Source of the DNA: Halobacteriovoraceae bacterium
GTDB lineage: Bacteria > Bdellovibrionota > Bacteriovoracia > Bacteriovoracales > Bacteriovoracaceae
Assembly (NCBI GenBank): GCA_002713145.1
Contig: PAVS01000014.1
Location: forward strand, 62,001-126,000
Direction: 5' to 3'
DNA length: 64,000 bases
Shown here piece after piece: positions 42,310 to 64,000 of this stretch. The notes beneath the pieces are model-generated. The model did no database searches, was not told the origin of the DNA, and was given only the letters and a program-made list of their open reading frames with translations. How positions within the stretch are numbered: the stretch's first letter is position 1; every line of letters starts with the position of its first letter. The position numbers and the translations under genes are program-made.

Positions 42310-42355
42310 AATAAGAGATAATAGCATCATTATGAAAAAGTTATTATCTCTTATT
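42310..42355 (+). repeat. 14-base perfect inverted repeat around the start codon
   Basis: AATAAGAGATAATA (42310-42323) and TATTATCTCTTATT (42342-42355) are exact reverse complements. The 18-base loop contains the ATG at 42332. In the mRNA the stem would hold the region upstream of the start and codons 4-8, so it may control translation of the 702-residue protein. Confidence 0.6.
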
Positions 42356-44440
42356 TTAGTTATAAGTACCGCTAGTATGGCGGCCAATCATCAACCCCTT
42401 ACCATTCATGATCTTGAATTGAATTTAGAGCAAGCGGATAAATGTGCTCTCATTGGATCCAGGTTTGAAGATATTGTAGCCGAGCTTAAAGCGGTGACTG
42501 AGTCCTATGATGGAAAATGTGTCTCAAGAGCAGAAACAGCTATCACAAATATTCAAGCCGATATGCAAAGTTTAGAAGAGGCGCGAGCTGAACTTGAGCT
42601 AGGGCAAGATGATACCGAGCTTGTGATGTCAGATGATCAGAGAGTGCGCTTTCAATCGACCCTCAACACTATTGGCTCTATGCTTAGTGAGAAGCAGTGT
42701 CGAAGTGAATTTAAGGATAAAGGTTTTCTTCCTATCCTTGCTAATACCGTGAATTCCATCTCTCAAATTGCCATGCTTAGCACTTCTCCCACAGGAATTG
42801 CTGTGGGTGTAGGGGGCTCTATTTTGTCTGTCACCCTTAAGGCCATCACAGATATTTTCACTCCTAAATTTAAATGGACTAATGAAGCTGATCGAAAAGC
42901 TTTTTTAACTTTTAACTGCTCCTACCAAACAGTCAAAAAGAAAATCAAGGATCAAGGTGTATATAATTTAAAAGACTATGAATTAGAAAACTTGATCTCT
43001 CAAACAGCAAAAGAGTTAGACGAACTTAAAAAAATAAAATTTGCAGAAGGCTCTATCCATAAACAGCTGGAAGAGATCAATCAAGAAGAACAAAAAGCTC
43101 TGGCAGAAGCTGAGCTTGCTAGGACTTCTATTGTAGTTGAACACGCAGTAGGACAGGATTATTATTTAGCTCATAAAGATGTAGTGAGGGCTTTAGAGAA
43201 AATGAATGAGCAAGCGGGCTTATTAGATCCCAGTCTTACTCAAGCCCAGCTAGATGTGCGTAAGGCCCAGGTTTTCTCAAAAATTCTCGCTGAGTACCAA
43301 ACCATTCAGACAAGAATTCCACTTATTAAGCCTAATGAGTCTAATATTTTTGACACCATCTTGTATCAAAACACGAAAGATAAATTAAGAATATTCACCG
43401 CAGATAATGCCTTAAAGCTCATGCAAATTAAAAGTGAAGAGATCGCTCAGCTTAAAAATGATCTCGCTTATAGTTTAGATGTGGTGAAGTCACTTCAACA
43501 AAACCTCTATGATAAAAATGTGGCATTACTCACTCCAGTGGAAATCACTCATTTACAAAATAAAATTGCCAGTGAACAAGAAATTAAAGCAAAGTATGAT
43601 CTCAAGCGCCAAGCTTTGATTAACACCGATCAAAATAAATATCAGCAAGAAGAAGATTATTACACAGACGTGGTTAATAAAGTGGCCGAGCTTGAAGTCA
43701 CCTTGGCAGAACTTAAGGCCCAAAAAACAACTATTGTCGGACAAGAACGTTACACCCTCAATAATGCAGGTGTAGAAAATGATGTAACGATTTACAATCT
43801 AGATAGGCTTAATTCTGAAAGAATCTATGGCCCTATTGGTTATAGTTTTATTCGTTATCTCGTGAGTCAGTCAAAAGAATCCTTACAAGATTTTGAGAAT
43901 AATAAAGAGAGACTTAGCTCTCGTATGAATTATCTAGGGTTTGAAGGACTGAGTGAGCAAGGAAAAATATCCTATTGTATCAATATGCGTGAGATGCAAA
44001 AAACATATACCAGCTCAGCTTTTCCCTCAGAGATGGGGTATGATTTTGTGGTGACAAATATGAACCTCTTCCATAATTTATTAAAAGATGATTTTGTTTT
44101 AAGTAGTGAGAGAAAAGAATTAAGAGATCATGCGTTCTCTGCTCTCTATGCTCGCTCACTTATTATGAAATATTATTCAAAAGAATATGCTGAATTACAA
44201 ACTCCGGATCAACTTTTGAGTTTTGCGGAAAACTTAAAATATGAAATTAATCCAACGGAATGTGTTGAGTCGAGCGGTCTACTTTCTAAAATCTTTGGAT
44301 CAAAAAAGAAATGCGGTTTTAAGCATGAGCATGTCTTTTTTAGAAACTCTATAGGAAGGGAGATGATCAAGTCCGTGGTGGCTGAGCGTTTTGCTCTAGA
44401 TATTCAGCGTAAAGTGGCAAAGTATTGTACTGAGTATTAA
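42332..44440 (+). CDS. large exported protein with coiled-coil, unknown
   Basis: A 702-residue protein with a signal peptide (MKKLLSLILVISTASMAA). A hydrophobic Gly/Ser-rich segment (about 140-170) could insert in a membrane. Long helical, probably coiled-coil stretches follow (about 225-480), rich in Glu, Lys, Gln and Leu. The C-terminus has Cys residues in KKCGFKH and AKYCTEY. No family recognised. It is the third exported-protein gene in a row after the two sigma-54 genes and carries a related palindrome upstream. No good SD is visible. Confidence 0.75.
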   Translation: MKKLLSLILVISTASMAANHQPLTIHDLELNLEQADKCALIGSRFEDIVAELKAVTESYDGKCVSRAETAITNIQADMQSLEEARAELELGQDDTELVMSDDQRVRFQSTLNTIGSMLSEKQCRSEFKDKGFLPILANTVNSISQIAMLSTSPTGIAVGVGGSILSVTLKAITDIFTPKFKWTNEADRKAFLTFNCSYQTVKKKIKDQGVYNLKDYELENLISQTAKELDELKKIKFAEGSIHKQLEEINQEEQKALAEAELARTSIVVEHAVGQDYYLAHKDVVRALEKMNEQAGLLDPSLTQAQLDVRKAQVFSKILAEYQTIQTRIPLIKPNESNIFDTILYQNTKDKLRIFTADNALKLMQIKSEEIAQLKNDLAYSLDVVKSLQQNLYDKNVALLTPVEITHLQNKIASEQEIKAKYDLKRQALINTDQNKYQQEEDYYTDVVNKVAELEVTLAELKAQKTTIVGQERYTLNNAGVENDVTIYNLDRLNSERIYGPIGYSFIRYLVSQSKESLQDFENNKERLSSRMNYLGFEGLSEQGKISYCINMREMQKTYTSSAFPSEMGYDFVVTNMNLFHNLLKDDFVLSSERKELRDHAFSALYARSLIMKYYSKEYAELQTPDQLLSFAENLKYEINPTECVESSGLLSKIFGSKKKCGFKHEHVFFRNSIGREMIKSVVAERFALDIQRKVAKYCTEY

Positions 44441-44673: not shown

Positions 44674-46071
44674 ATGATCATTAATTCAGAAAAACTCTAT
44701 GATTTCATAATAATAGGCTCCGGTGTGTCTGGTTCAATTATGGCCCATGATCTTTTGGATCAAGGTTATAGTTGTCTGCTCTTAGAAGCTGGTGAGTTCT
44801 TTAGCCGTTCTAATTTCCCTCGAAAAGAGATTGATGCCAACTCAAAACTTTATTGGTCAGGGGGAGCTGAATTTAATAAGACGACAAATATTGCTTTCTT
44901 GCGGCCTAAAGTTGTCGGCGGCGGCTCCATCGTGAACCAGGCTTTGCTTGATCGCTTTGATGATATTGCTCTTAATGATTTTCAAAAAACGTCACAGATC
45001 AACTTCTTTAATCAAGAAGCAATGTCCCCATGGTATGAAAAAGCAGAAGCAGGAATTCATCAAGAAACCATTGATCCAAAATATAGAAATCGTAATGCTG
45101 AGATTTTTGCAAAGGGCTTTGCGGCTAATGGTTATAACTGTGCATCTCTGACCCGGGCACAAAATAATTGCAGATATGAAGAGGGCAATGATTGTATTGA
45201 ATGCCTAGGGGGCTGCCGAGCAGATAGTAAACAAAGTATGCTCATCACATATCTTAAAAAAGCTTTGAATAACGGACTTGAGATGATGTCGTTATTTGAA
45301 GCAAAAAGTATTGAAGAAAAACCAGAGTATATTTTAGTCAACGGAGTCTATAATAAGTTTGCTCATAAAACTTTTAAGGCGAGAAAAGTTGTCCTTGCCA
45401 GTGGGGCCATAGGAAATACCAAGCTCTTAAAGAGCAGTGGTTTTGATAAAGACTACCCAGCTCTGGGAAAAAACTTTTACACCCACCCGCAATTTATGGT
45501 GCTCGCTGAATTTAAAGATCAAATCAACTCGCACAAGGGGCCTTTTCAGTCTATGAAGTCTGCGGATAGCGGTTTTAGACAAAAAGGATTTAAACTCGAA
45601 AATGTATTTGCCCCTCCGGTGGCGCTGTCTATGCTGTTTAAAGGTTTTGGTAAAGAGCATATGGCGCTTATGAAAAAAATCTCTCATATGGGGTGTATAG
45701 AAGTGGCCGTTCGAGACACTCATCCAGGAGAAATAAAATTACGGAGAGGAAAACTCAGTATTTATAAAACATTAAACGAGGAAGATAAAAAAAGAAGAGC
45801 CGCAGGAATTGAAGCGATTTATAATATTTTCGAATCCCAAGGGGCTCTTAATATCATGGAAGGGAATTTACCCATTGGGCTCCATTTGATGGGGGGCTGT
45901 AGTGTGGGCAGTGATTCAGAAAAATCTGTGGTGAGCCCAGATTTTCATTTGCATGAACATAAAAATATTATTTGCGCTGATAGCTCTATTTTTCCCAACG
46001 CTCCTGGAATCAATCCCTCGTTAACTATCATGGCTTTGTCCAAGATGGCAGCAGCTAAGGTGGGGTTTTAA
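44674..46071 (+). CDS. GMC-family FAD-dependent oxidoreductase
   Basis: A flavoprotein with the FAD fingerprint DFIIIGSGVSGS at the start, VVGGGSIVNQALL, a Cys-containing segment (NDCIECLGGCRADSKQS) and the GMC C-terminal signature GLHLMGGCSVGSD ... FPNAPGINPSLTI. The family oxidises alcohols or sugars to aldehydes or ketones. The start is uncertain: ATG 44674 fits the domain but lacks an SD; TTG codons at 44608 and 44620 are possible. It overlaps the aldehyde dehydrogenase gene by one base (TAATG), suggesting that alcohol and then aldehyde oxidation are coupled. Confidence 0.85.
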   Translation: MIINSEKLYDFIIIGSGVSGSIMAHDLLDQGYSCLLLEAGEFFSRSNFPRKEIDANSKLYWSGGAEFNKTTNIAFLRPKVVGGGSIVNQALLDRFDDIALNDFQKTSQINFFNQEAMSPWYEKAEAGIHQETIDPKYRNRNAEIFAKGFAANGYNCASLTRAQNNCRYEEGNDCIECLGGCRADSKQSMLITYLKKALNNGLEMMSLFEAKSIEEKPEYILVNGVYNKFAHKTFKARKVVLASGAIGNTKLLKSSGFDKDYPALGKNFYTHPQFMVLAEFKDQINSHKGPFQSMKSADSGFRQKGFKLENVFAPPVALSMLFKGFGKEHMALMKKISHMGCIEVAVRDTHPGEIKLRRGKLSIYKTLNEEDKKRRAAGIEAIYNIFESQGALNIMEGNLPIGLHLMGGCSVGSDSEKSVVSPDFHLHEHKNIICADSSIFPNAPGINPSLTIMALSKMAAAKVGF

Positions 46072-48029
46072 TGGGAACGTTTATTTTATCAAGCCTTCAA
46101 TACAAAGGACTGTTAAAGCTAGGTGATGTGGTGATTCCGGGAGATGGTGAGCTACCGAAGTTTTCTGATACAGAACAAGCTCGCTATGCAGATAAAATGT
46201 TGAAGTATATGAACCAAGAGGATCTTGATGGGTTGAAGTTAGTGCTTATTGTCTTTGCCATCATCCCTAAGTTTTTCATAGCTCTCATTTTAAAGCTTTC
46301 GGAGAAAGCCCAAGGGGAGGGCTTTGTCGCTTCCCAACTAAGACTGGTCAATATTGGTCTCAAAGGCGTACCGCTCACACTTTATTATTCAAACTTAAAC
46401 GATAACGGACAACAAATTCATAATATTTTAAAATGGGATAGCGAAATAAAAAGTATCCCCAAAGGAGTTGATGAGATGGAACAGTACACGGATAGCTATG
46501 CGAAGAACAAAGTTCAAAACCTAGTCATAAATGCTGATCATTCAGAAGTAGATATTGCTGGCAAAGTTTTTAAACGTGCTCGTCAAAACCAAGTGGAAGT
46601 GACTCAAATGAGTATCGAAGAAAGATTAACTTTTATCACGAGGCTCAAAGAAGTTATCCTTGAGCGCAGAGAGTGGATCATTGAGCGCATTCAAAAAGAT
46701 AACGGAAAAACCAAAACAGATGCCCTGGTCTCTGAAATCTTTGGCGTCCTCGATCATCTTCATTGGTTAGAGAAAAATACAAAAAAAGCCCTTAAGGATG
46801 AAACCGTCGCCACTCCCATTGCACTGATGGGGAAGAAATCGAAAATTTATTACGATGCCCTGGGAACCATTCTCGTCATTAGTCCTTGGAACTATCCTTT
46901 CTATCAAGCTATTGTTCCTATCACGGCTGCTTTTGTTGCGGGGAATACTGTGGTTTATAAGCCTTCTGAATTCACTCCACTTGAAGGTGTGTTAGAAGAA
47001 CTTATGGAATTAAGTGGAATAAAATCGGAATGGGTTCAAGTTGTTTATGGAACTGGAAAAATGGGGACGGCTTTAATCGATCAGCGTCCGGATAAAATCT
47101 TTTTTACAGGTTCTGTGGCAACTGGAAAAAAAATCATGCGCCAAGCTTCCGAGCAGCTCATCCCTGTTGAGTTAGAGTTGGGGGGAAAAGACCCTGCGAT
47201 TGTTTTTGAAGATGCAAATATTGAGAGAGCTGCCAGAGGAGTTGTTTGGGGAGCACTGACGTGTACCGGACAAAGCTGTACATCTGTTGAGCAAGTGTAT
47301 GTTCATGAAAGTATTTATGAAAAATTTAAAGCTGTTGTTTTAAGTGAAGTCCAAAAAATTCGTCTCGGTGAAGAAACTGATGGAGAAGGGGAGTTGGGGC
47401 TTATGACCACAGAAGGGCAAGTTCAAATTGTCGCTGATCATATGCAAGATGCAACTTCTAAAGGCGCGAGCGTTCTCAGTGGAGCGGATTGGGATGGAAA
47501 GTCTCGTGCTATTCCGCCGCTTGTTTTTGAAAATCTAAGGGATGATATGAAAATCACCAATGAAGAAACTTTTGGACCTATCTTACCGCTAATGAAATTT
47601 ACCAGTGAGCAAGATCTGGTCGATAAACTCAACCAATCTGAATACGGTTTATCCGCTTCTATTTGGTCAGGGGACAAGAACCGATGCGAGCGAGTTGCCC
47701 ATGCCCTGCATACAGGAAATGTTTCTATTAACAATGTGATGCTTACCGAAGGAAATCCAAACCTTCCTTTTGGTGGGGTGAAGAATTCTGGAATTGGACG
47801 CTATAAAGGAGTGCATGGACTTCGTGGCTTTACCAATATGAAATCCATTATTTTTGATAGCAATAGTTCAAAATGTGAAGTGATTTGGTATCCCTATACA
47901 GCAAAAAAATATCGCTCTTTTGATAAGATGATGGTGGCCCTGTTTACCGGGGGAATTATGAACTTTATCAAATTTGCTTTAACAGGAATTGGACTTGAGT
48001 CGTATAGTGATAAGATCGCTAAAAAATAG
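46071..48029 (+). CDS. aldehyde dehydrogenase with N-terminal GMC-subunit-like domain
   Basis: A 652-residue protein. Residues about 1-125 (GDVVIPGDGELPKF, and a hydrophobic helix at 56-74) resemble the small membrane-associated subunit found next to some GMC oxidoreductases. From about 140 it is a full aldehyde dehydrogenase: SPWNYPFYQ, ELGGKDP (catalytic Glu) and GQSCTS (catalytic Cys). An in-frame ATG at 46476 (Met136) is preceded by AAAGGAG at 46461-46467 with 8-base spacing and would give a free 517-residue dehydrogenase. The gene overlaps the GMC oxidase by one base, so the pair may oxidise an alcohol to an acid through a tethered intermediate. Confidence 0.85.
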   Translation: MGTFILSSLQYKGLLKLGDVVIPGDGELPKFSDTEQARYADKMLKYMNQEDLDGLKLVLIVFAIIPKFFIALILKLSEKAQGEGFVASQLRLVNIGLKGVPLTLYYSNLNDNGQQIHNILKWDSEIKSIPKGVDEMEQYTDSYAKNKVQNLVINADHSEVDIAGKVFKRARQNQVEVTQMSIEERLTFITRLKEVILERREWIIERIQKDNGKTKTDALVSEIFGVLDHLHWLEKNTKKALKDETVATPIALMGKKSKIYYDALGTILVISPWNYPFYQAIVPITAAFVAGNTVVYKPSEFTPLEGVLEELMELSGIKSEWVQVVYGTGKMGTALIDQRPDKIFFTGSVATGKKIMRQASEQLIPVELELGGKDPAIVFEDANIERAARGVVWGALTCTGQSCTSVEQVYVHESIYEKFKAVVLSEVQKIRLGEETDGEGELGLMTTEGQVQIVADHMQDATSKGASVLSGADWDGKSRAIPPLVFENLRDDMKITNEETFGPILPLMKFTSEQDLVDKLNQSEYGLSASIWSGDKNRCERVAHALHTGNVSINNVMLTEGNPNLPFGGVKNSGIGRYKGVHGLRGFTNMKSIIFDSNSSKCEVIWYPYTAKKYRSFDKMMVALFTGGIMNFIKFALTGIGLESYSDKIAKK

Positions 48030-61293: not shown

Positions 61294-62278
61294 TTTGATA
61301 AGCATTTTGTTTTAAAAACTGATCTGCCATCACAACGCAGGCCATGCTTTCCACCACGGGAAGGACTCGCGGAAGGATACATGGATCATGACGACCCGCT
61401 TTTGCTTTTTCACCTACAGTTGAAGGAGCTTTAAAAGTGAGAGTGCACCAAATGATTTCACCATTTGAGATCCCCCCCTCGATACCTCCAAAATTTTGCG
61501 GATCACTTGAGATTTCACTTCCCAGTTTTTGAGAAAATTGATGTCCTAATCCAAATTCGACCGACATGCACGAGCCAATACTTAAAAAAGCATGGCCAAG
61601 AACAGCTTTTAATTTATCAAAAACAGGTTCGCCCAATCCTGCTGGACAATTTTGTATGGCCAGTAACACCTTACCACCTGCGGATTCACCTTTTTGTTTA
61701 AGCTCTAGTAAGTATTTCTCAATTTCTTGATCCCTAGCTTGATCAGCAAAGCCTAACTGAGACTCACTCTTGAGATAATTAAGTGGCCTCTCAACTGAAT
61801 AAGGACCAAGCTCAGTGATGATAGCTTTAAAACTTATCTCGGGAATAATAAGGGAGGCAAAATAGCCTGCAATGACCCGCGCAGCCGTTTCACGTCCAGA
61901 CGCTCGACCGCCCCCCCGGTGATCTCTGTATCCAAACTTGGCCATCGTCGTTTTATCAGCATGTCCTGGGCGATATTCATTTTTAAGCTGGGAGTAATCT
62001 TCTGATCTTTGATTGGTATTTTTGATCATAACGGCAATGGGAGTTCCCAAAGTTCTTCCTTCAAAAATACCTGATAAGATTTGAGCCTGATCGGCTTCGT
62101 TACGACTGGTGGAGACTTTTAATCTCCCTGGTCGGCGTCGATCGAGCTGGGCTTGCAGATCATCTCCAGAGACAACTAAACCAGCAGGCATTCCATCTAT
62201 AACCACTCCCATGGCTTCACCGTGAGATTCTCCAAAAGTTGTCATTGTAAAAATATCACCAAAACTATTTCCGCGCAT
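61280..62278 (-). CDS. aroC: chorismate synthase
   Basis: The last enzyme of the shikimate pathway, making chorismate from EPSP with reduced FMN. Signatures: FGESHGEAMGVVIDG, RPGHADKTTMAKFGYRDHRGGGRASGRETAARV and ISNGEIIW. ATG 62278 (MRGNSFGD) is preferred over TTG 62287 by comparison with the usual AroC N-terminus. It begins directly after the ABC ATPase gene, so they share a transcript. A PabB-like user of chorismate lies at 25712. Confidence 0.95.
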   Translation of the reverse strand: MRGNSFGDIFTMTTFGESHGEAMGVVIDGMPAGLVVSGDDLQAQLDRRRPGRLKVSTSRNEADQAQILSGIFEGRTLGTPIAVMIKNTNQRSEDYSQLKNEYRPGHADKTTMAKFGYRDHRGGGRASGRETAARVIAGYFASLIIPEISFKAIITELGPYSVERPLNYLKSESQLGFADQARDQEIEKYLLELKQKGESAGGKVLLAIQNCPAGLGEPVFDKLKAVLGHAFLSIGSCMSVEFGLGHQFSQKLGSEISSDPQNFGGIEGGISNGEIIWCTLTFKAPSTVGEKAKAGRHDPCILPRVLPVVESMACVVMADQFLKQNAYQINAK

Positions 62279-63301: not shown

Positions 63302-64000
63302 TATTTTTTAAGACCTACGAGATCGTCAATTTTTGAACTATTATCCGTTGTCTCTAAACTGGCAATAGTGTGAACGGTATGATCAATCATGCTGACACCA
63401 GCTGGATGAAAATTACCTGAATGCTTAAGACCTCCAAAAGGAAGTTTTGAGCTTGCTCCCACAGTTGAGCGATTTAAATTAATGATTCCAGAGTCAACTT
63501 CCATGAGGACTCTTTGATAAATTTCTTTGTCTTGAGTGAACACACTACTCGCCAGACCATAATCACTGATATTAGCAATTTGAATCGCTTGCTCAATATC
63601 TTCATAAGGCGTGAGTGTGCAGTTAGGACCAAAGATTTCTTCTTGAGTGAAGGGGTTATCTTTTTTCGCTTCTTTTAAATAATGTACGGTTGGATTAACG
63701 TAATGACCTTCAAATTCAATATCAATTTCACGGGGGGCAATGAGTGCTTCGGCGCCATTTTGCTCACCCAGACCTAAAGCCTGGAGATATTTATTAACTG
63801 CCATCTCATCAATAAGAGGGCCCATAAAAGGTGTTTCTTTAAATTTCGTGGGATGATCCACAATAATCTTTTTAGTTAATTCTATAAAACGATCAATAAA
63901 CTGTTGCTCTATATTTTTATGAACAGCCACCATAGAAGTAGAGGAGCATCTTTGTCCTGAAGACAAAAAGCAAGCTCTAAGCAGTTCAGGCAGAGCATGA
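63301..64000 (-). CDS. aldehyde dehydrogenase, 5' part outside the window
   Basis: The frame is open to the window end, so only the C-terminal 232 residues are visible. They begin just before the catalytic Cys motif SSGQRCSST and continue with TQEEIFGPNCTLTPY, NLNRSTVGASSKLPFGGLKHSGN. This is closest in pattern to succinylglutamate-semialdehyde dehydrogenase (AstD) and related enzymes, but the specificity cannot be fixed from this part. A TTG at 63966 is inside the domain and not the start. It is followed by the ABC ATPase gene with a one-base overlap. Confidence 0.85.
   Translation of the reverse strand, partial: HALPELLRACFLSSGQRCSSTSMVAVHKNIEQQFIDRFIELTKKIIVDHPTKFKETPFMGPLIDEMAVNKYLQALGLGEQNGAEALIAPREIDIEFEGHYVNPTVHYLKEAKKDNPFTQEEIFGPNCTLTPYEDIEQAIQIANISDYGLASSVFTQDKEIYQRVLMEVDSGIINLNRSTVGASSKLPFGGLKHSGNFHPAGVSMIDHTVHTIASLETTDNSSKIDDLVGLKK

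Follow-up and report, generated by a model that had tools for sequence, protein, structure and literature searches.

Which substrate and which pathway are served by a gene that joins an N-terminal helical domain to a complete aldehyde dehydrogenase (ALDH) and directly follows a gene of the GMC oxidoreductase family? The two genes lie in a 64,000-nucleotide stretch of DNA, hereafter the window, from a Halobacteriovoraceae bacterium (positions 62,001 to 126,000 of contig PAVS01000014.1, assembly GCA_002713145.1). An earlier sequence-only reading of this DNA had interpreted the N-terminal domain (ND) as a membrane-associated partner of a GMC oxidase and the pair as a complex that passes an aldehyde from one enzyme to the other. 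The fusion is most naturally read as a means for GMC to hand an aldehyde over to ALDH, and its association with an aldolase-like family (ALD) and a ceramidase, missing from that reading, suggests the substrate and the pathway. We favor, with somewhat better than even confidence, the view that the GMC protein and ND-ALDH form a cytoplasmic alcohol-to-acid complex, probably attached to the membrane, for the breakdown of sphingoid bases. We infer this complex, with its iron-sulfur (Fe-S) cluster, electron acceptor, substrate, and order of steps, from the gene fusion, gene order, co-occurrence, conserved residues, and family relations that we observed.

A fusion gene behind a GMC gene

The fusion is a 652-amino-acid open reading frame (ORF) at 46071-48029 on the forward strand, beginning with ATG. 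ND, supported by alignment, an AlphaFold2 (AF2) model, and gene order, covers residues 1-135 (46071-46475), and the ALDH domain covers residues 155-593 (46533-47849; Pfam Aldedh, PF00171, E 3.5e-116), so that the proposed combination of a GMC-partner-like N terminus and a complete ALDH in one ORF holds. The motifs of the ALDH catalytic residues Glu369 (47175-47177) and Cys403 (47277-47279) are present in 56/56 ALDH rows. Behind the domain lies an amphipathic C-terminal tail (residues 594-652, 47850-48026; Kyte-Doolittle maximum 1.54), found also in the relatives inspected. The GMC-family flavin adenine dinucleotide (FAD) dehydrogenase gene (44674-46071, forward strand; 465 amino acids from ATG 44674) overlaps the fusion by one base, as previously noted: in TAATG, the GMC stop TAA (46069-46071) shares a base with the fusion ATG at 46071. 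A GMC start at TTG 44608, as in the ORF list, is also possible but is probably too early, and we prefer ATG 44674 because the FAD Rossmann fold begins immediately after it.

We scanned the GTDB species genomes with the whole fusion protein as query and retrieved 80 loci, many with full-length fusions; removal of duplicates left 56 ND loci, 38 with ND fused to ALDH and 18 unfused. The recurrence that the sequence-only reading had called for as a check is thus present, and since 38 nonredundant loci share the fusion, it is not an assembly artifact.

ND and its link to GMC proteins

ND has no Pfam or NCBIfam match above threshold (the first 136 residues give only a subthreshold DUF6884 match, E 0.11) and constitutes a domain family for which neither database has a model. 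P23, P66, G99, and Y105 are invariant in an alignment of 48 ND sequences, and the AF2 model has six helices with a mean predicted local distance difference test (pLDDT) score of 89.6.

The strongest tie to GMC enzymes is gene order. In all 56 nonredundant ND loci a GMC gene stands immediately upstream on the same strand, and in 48 of these an ND start codon falls in the range from -4 to +5 relative to the stop codon of GMC (exactly -4 in 29). This adjacency is not built in, because the loci were found with ND or ALDH queries and not with GMC. It persists where a separate ALDH gene follows (L050, L058, and L074) or precedes (L060 to L062), where ALDH is on the other strand (L055, L056, and L066), and where it is absent from the stretch read (L126, L131, and L136).

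A distant kinship of ND with gluconate-2-dehydrogenase subunit 3 (PF13618), itself a small GMC partner, is likely from profile similarity. PF13618 touches 5 of 48 ND members (best E 0.016, below the Pfam cut-off), and an hhalign comparison of ND with a profile of 24 genome-derived PF13618 proteins scores 33.4 (P 9.6e-5, probability 58%), covering a helix-(I/V)IP-D motif; the best of 100 column shuffles scores only 19.5, and the reversed profile scores 14.4. Solved structures yielded little on this point: ND found no sequence match at E<=10, Foldseek of ND against the PDB returned nothing better than E 1.7, the best VIA match had a Z of 3.9, and the PF13618 profile had no match in the PDB. The structure search argues neither for a new ND fold nor for an old one. 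Together, the gene order, the weak PF13618 similarity, and a very hydrophobic hairpin in ND support the earlier assignment of the N terminus as a GMC partner domain.

ND differs from PF13618 in its export signal. A twin-arginine motif, the mark of twin-arginine translocation (Tat), occurs in 22 of the 24 PF13618 proteins by script and also, by eye, in L101. Among 55 ND proteins there is no credible Tat motif (RR appears only in the "MRRES" of L047 and L054), nor is there room for one in ND or in GMC; the ND domain begins 1 to 21 residues after the nearest Met. Known GMC small subunits assist in exporting their catalytic partner and also cover its Fe-S cluster (PMC6719666); by analogy, ND would retain the covering role and not the export role.

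Residues 55-76 are very hydrophobic (Kyte-Doolittle 2.56 over 19 residues) and lie in a helix-Pro-helix element (residues 49-78, 46215-46304; AF2 helices 49-64 and 67-78). The model places a short helix on either side of the invariant Pro66, an arrangement closer to a hairpin than to one membrane-spanning helix, and the hairpin could serve either membrane insertion or contact with GMC.

A cysteine cluster in the GMC protein

The gene upstream of the fusion matches GMC_oxred_N (6e-28) and GMC_oxred_C (2e-15) in Pfam, and its product has no signal peptide. We take His426 and Asn469 (45883-46014), present in 54/55 and 53/55 GMC sequences, to be the catalytic pair from general knowledge of GMC enzymes. 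The AF2 model (pLDDT 91.3) finds fructose dehydrogenase as its top PDB fold, followed closely by cholesterol oxidase and glucose dehydrogenase, and the best solved relatives by profile are the FAD-glucose dehydrogenase of Burkholderia cepacia (9e-24) and the fructose dehydrogenase of Gluconobacter (4e-23).

Cys188, Cys196, Cys199, and Cys203 (45169-45216; numbered from TTG 44608) are invariant in all 55 GMC sequences, and their CxxCxxxC part aligns with the cysteine cluster of glucose and fructose dehydrogenases (6a2u/7w2j), making this the presumed Fe-S site. In the glucose dehydrogenase, Cys212, Cys218, and Cys222 ligate a 3Fe-4S cluster that accepts electrons from FAD (PMC6719666). The label "oxidase" is doubtful because the four invariant cysteines align with these Fe-S ligands; the family assignment stands, and the conserved residues point to what is probably a cytoplasmic Fe-S dehydrogenase. 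The occurrence of family members in strictly anaerobic sulfate reducers likewise disfavors oxygen as the acceptor.

The B. cepacia and Gluconobacter systems resemble the present one in their GMC fold, aligned 3Fe-4S cysteine cluster, and small helical partner gene. They differ in having a multiheme cytochrome c subunit and a Tat signal, whereas here neither GMC nor ND carries Tat, no cytochrome gene family recurs in the flanks of the compared loci, and no Pfam cytochrome appears among the window neighbors scanned. They also lack the fusion of the small subunit to ALDH, and Foldseek does not match ND to that subunit.

Aldolase-like and ceramidase genes linked to the fusion

We clustered the neighboring gene families with the spans of the core genes masked. 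The commonest, ALD, is a pyridoxal 5'-phosphate (PLP) enzyme of ~400 amino acids (Pfam PF01168; E 3e-12 for the copy in the window's own genome) that occurs in 26 of the 38 loci with the fusion and in 9 of the 18 without it and is often translated adjacent to GMC or the fusion. Among NCBIfam models it matches the 3-hydroxy-D-aspartate aldolase BhcC best (70 bits against a cut-off of 690), and the closest relatives of known structure are a D-3-hydroxyaspartate aldolase (6qkb, 2e-21) and a D-threonine aldolase (7yqa, 7e-21). Like BhcC and D-threonine aldolase, ALD belongs to the fold-type III PLP family and has the PLP lysine (33 of 34 rows); it differs from them in a diverged C terminus with an invariant Lys365 in an RHxK motif.

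Next comes neutral ceramidase (PF04734, with E values as low as 4e-190), present in 6 of the 38 loci with the fusion and in 3 of the 18 without it; its stop codon and the start codon of the ALDH gene overlap as ATGA in L055 and L056. The third is an Exo_endo_phos protein in 8 mapped stretches, duplicates included; in L027 and L024, the two loci tested, its highest-scoring NCBIfam model, below cut-off, is a sphingomyelin phosphodiesterase. No signal peptide was found on the Bacteriovoracaceae ceramidases with a visible start, that of the window's genome included; the Chitinimonas ceramidases carry one. Chitinimonas has a gene cluster of ceramidase, GMC, fusion, and aldolase.

The window's genome has its own ALD (G000:C17:139704-140882) and ceramidase (138149-139678), both on the reverse strand and ~26 bases apart by match coordinates, on the same contig as the fusion and 31 kb downstream of it, outside the window. 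The pair (G000:C17:138149-140903; L174:5114-7901) is flanked by glyA (serine hydroxymethyltransferase) and nrdR-nusB.

Whole genomes show the same association. ND was found in 22 of the 240 Bdellovibrionota-phylum genomes surveyed, and we counted the 21 with E<1e-10 (one more match, at 7.7e-4, was dropped), together with 34 that have ALD (E<=1e-30) and 42 that have a ceramidase, 26 of them strong (E<1e-30). The following Fisher tests all ignore kinship. ALD is present in 19/21 ND genomes versus 15/219 others (5e-17); ALD and a strong ceramidase coincide in 14 genomes (3e-7), or in 18 when all 42 ceramidase genomes are counted (2e-7); and ND and a strong ceramidase coincide in 8 of the 21 (5e-4), or in 11 by the wider count (1e-4). 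In 13 of the 14 genomes that have both ALD and a strong ceramidase, the two genes stand on the same contig, 26 to 1,400 bases apart; ALD and ND are on a common contig in 14 of 19. Seven genomes have ALD and ceramidase and no ND, including G027, where a sphingomyelinase-like gene lies between the two (L179:4271-8026).

A proposed route for sphingoid-base breakdown

We hypothesize that the ceramidase would release a sphingoid base from ceramide, whose C1 alcohol is the most likely substrate of the GMC protein. With its FAD, GMC would oxidize this primary alcohol to the aldehyde, and the electrons may leave through a surface Fe-S cluster capped by ND, much as the cluster of bacterial glucose dehydrogenase is capped by its small subunit. 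ND would keep the nicotinamide-dependent [NAD(P)-dependent] ALDH beside GMC, allowing the reactive aldehyde to be oxidized to the acid on the spot. By our own derivation, a carboxylate at C1 would change the Cahn-Ingold-Prelog label at C2 from S to R with no bond moved, turning a (2S,3R) base into a (2R,3R) acid. The product would be a D-2-amino-3-hydroxy acid, the substrate type of the D-threonine and 3-hydroxy-D-aspartate aldolases. D-Threonine-type aldolases cleave D-3-hydroxy amino acids to glycine and an aldehyde, and ALD would split the acid to glycine and a long-chain aldehyde. The stereochemistry expected of the acid thus fits the D-specific family to which the adjacent aldolase is related.

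The general idea of oxidation followed by aldol cleavage was already proposed for Pseudomonas, and the enzyme set described here fits it better. The SphR sphingosine regulon of Pseudomonas aeruginosa comprises the ceramidase gene cerN and sphBCD and is induced by sphingosine, and oxidation followed by aldol cleavage to glycine and an aldehyde was predicted for SphC and SphD (PMC3900636). The resemblance, drawn by description only, is of a flavin oxidoreductase, a PLP threonine-aldolase-like enzyme, and a neutral ceramidase in both systems. Work from 2025 found sphBC to be required for sphingosine metabolism; it did not identify the product and left open whether SphB and SphC act directly (PMC11893366). 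SphC differs from the GMC protein in being periplasmic, Tat-exported, and paired with cytochrome c (PMC11893366), and the Pseudomonas system has neither an ND nor an ALDH fusion. The eukaryotic sphingosine-1-phosphate lyase likewise uses PLP to split a sphingoid base by a retro-aldol reaction (PMC6148460), whereas the route proposed here would involve no phosphorylation, would convert C1 to the acid, and would yield glycine and an aldehyde rather than phosphoethanolamine and hexadecenal. The Bacteriovoracaceae and their counterparts in other phyla would then follow the logic of Pseudomonas with one extra step, that of the ALDH fused to the GMC partner domain. What is new is a GMC protein of the Fe-S type, an unexported partner domain fused to ALDH, and a relative of D-aldolases linked to ceramidase in many genomes; our literature search, which mostly lacked subscription papers, found no description of a GMC-partner/ALDH fusion or of the acid intermediate. 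The proposal supplies an enzyme set that can be purified and a defined intermediate to seek, the D-2-amino-3-hydroxy fatty acid.

Several observations weigh against this route. The match of ALD to D-threonine aldolases spans only the N-terminal two thirds, the C-terminal region having diverged, and its BhcC score is far below the cut-off. The ALD and ceramidase genes of the window's genome are not beside the fusion, neither gene was found in the flanks read for the nearest relatives (L020 to L022), and the co-occurrence counts carry no correction for kinship. In P. aeruginosa, sphD was dispensable under the conditions used (PMC11893366). ALD relatives in Burkholderia, Mycobacterium, Arthrobacter, and Tsukamurella adjoin a PF04030 flavoprotein with no ceramidase nearby, and the ALD family is therefore wider than the GMC-ND-ALDH system and may serve other substrates. 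Such pairs, in which ALD stands beside a flavoprotein of the D-arabinono-1,4-lactone oxidase type (L210:6767-9837 in Burkholderia, L211:5998-9759 in Mycobacterium riyadhense, and L212:5944-8546 in Arthrobacter), possibly represent a parallel pathway with another flavin enzyme and in that respect support the logic of flavin-dependent alcohol oxidation plus an aldolase.

These points can be weighed together with three other readings. It is conceivable, if rather unlikely, that the same pathway runs with the ALDH last, the aldolase cleaving the amino aldehyde made by GMC, or a derivative, and the ALDH then converting the long-chain aldehyde set free into a fatty acid; direct aldol cleavage is the order predicted for SphC/SphD (PMC3900636). 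Three loci (L126, L131, and L136) combine GMC, ND, and ALD with no ALDH in the stretch examined, and they speak for this order as they speak against ours. Set against it are the fusion itself, which joins the ALDH to the GMC partner domain and not to the aldolase, and the general knowledge that D-threonine aldolases take amino acids, not amino aldehydes. We consider it unlikely that the genes form a general module converting long-chain fatty alcohols to fatty acids, with ALD and ceramidase merely part of a wider lipid-salvage cluster. Such a module would accord with cholesterol oxidase among the closest GMC folds, with the hydrophobic ND hairpin and the ALDH tail, and with two further observations that count against a sphingoid substrate: the flanks of the Desulfobacterales loci hold no ceramidase, and 13 of the 21 ND genomes have no strong ceramidase match. 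It leaves unexplained, however, that the commonest neighbor is a relative of D-hydroxy-amino-acid aldolases, present in nearly all ND genomes and often translated beside GMC or the fusion. Very unlikely, and the least probable of the three, is a role in biosynthesis or remodeling of the predator's own sphingolipids, which would suit the serine palmitoyltransferase and sphingophosphonolipids of Bacteriovorax stolpii (PMC6148460); against it, GMC and ALDH both work in the oxidative direction, ceramidase is a degradative enzyme, and the P. aeruginosa analogues are induced by sphingosine. Because B. stolpii makes such lipids, the sphingolipids broken down could be the cell's own, the prey's, or environmental.

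We retain oxidation of C1 to the acid ahead of aldol cleavage as the preferred order. That ND represents a GMC partner domain of a new, unexported class and that the pathway extends over the predatory Bacteriovoracaceae with their relatives, Chitinimonas, and Bacteroidota, with a related form in anaerobic Desulfobacterales, is a joint claim that we advance tentatively, at slightly less than even chances.

Met136 at the domain junction

The sequence-only reading had also pointed to AAAGGAG (46461-46467) 8 bases before an in-frame ATG (46476, Met136) and suggested a pool of free dehydrogenase. The site is there as described, spanning 46461-46478 at the domain junction, and two further observations would suit two proteins from one gene: strong Shine-Dalgarno sequences (<= -6 kcal) precede 11 of 46 junction ATGs compared with 8.6% of 397 ALDH-interior ATGs (Fisher p 0.003, kinship ignored), and the junction Met stands where separate ALDH genes start. 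Codon choice, however, gives no sign of selection for the site when synonymous codons are shuffled (p 0.44 for the window; p 0.79 for the 46 junction sites combined), and L021, a close relative, and most of the Desulfobacterales fusions lack the Met. Codon choice does not support the free-dehydrogenase pool, and internal initiation at Met136 appears distinctly improbable; the site is probably what remains of a once separate ALDH start, or else due to chance.

Phylogenetic range and history

ND loci occur in Bacteriovoracaceae/Halobacteriovoraceae, other Bdellovibrionota, Desulfobacterales, Chitinimonas, Parachitinimonas, Bacteroidota, Sericytochromatia, and single metagenome-assembled genomes (MAGs) of other labels. 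The window's genome is closest to Halobacteriovoraceae, its ALDH being 71% identical to that of L020. Outside the Bdellovibrionota, ND was found in 2 of 198 genomes of Desulfosarcina's phylum (Desulfobacterota), one of them the seed genome, and in 1 of 398 of Chitinimonas' phylum (Pseudomonadota), the seed genome only; it was absent from the plasmids searched. A maximum-likelihood tree built from 74 ALDH rows requires 5 changes of the label "fused" (shuffled mean 25), at least 4 of which are forced by well-supported branches, and therefore fusion and fission have both occurred, or fusion more than once.

In a Bacteroidales MAG (L074:4530-4640) the ND and ALDH genes lie in the same frame with one TAA between them, a fusion minus one codon. 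Candidate single-chain GMC-ND-ALDH triple fusions (a 1,141-amino-acid frame in G311 and one of 609 amino acids in G214) were rejected as GC-rich open frames overlapping the GMC gene out of frame. In eight Desulfobacterales-type loci (L037, L039, L043, L044, L049, L051, L064, and L065) a TetR/BetI-type regulator, assigned by Pfam on L049, precedes the aldolase-GMC-fusion operon.

Other genes in the window and genome

Directly upstream of the GMC gene, a 702-amino-acid protein (42332-44440) has an apparent signal peptide and no Pfam match. At the right edge of the window, an unrelated second ALDH gene (63304-63999, reverse strand) runs past the end, and the genome as a whole contains nine ALDH-type matches.

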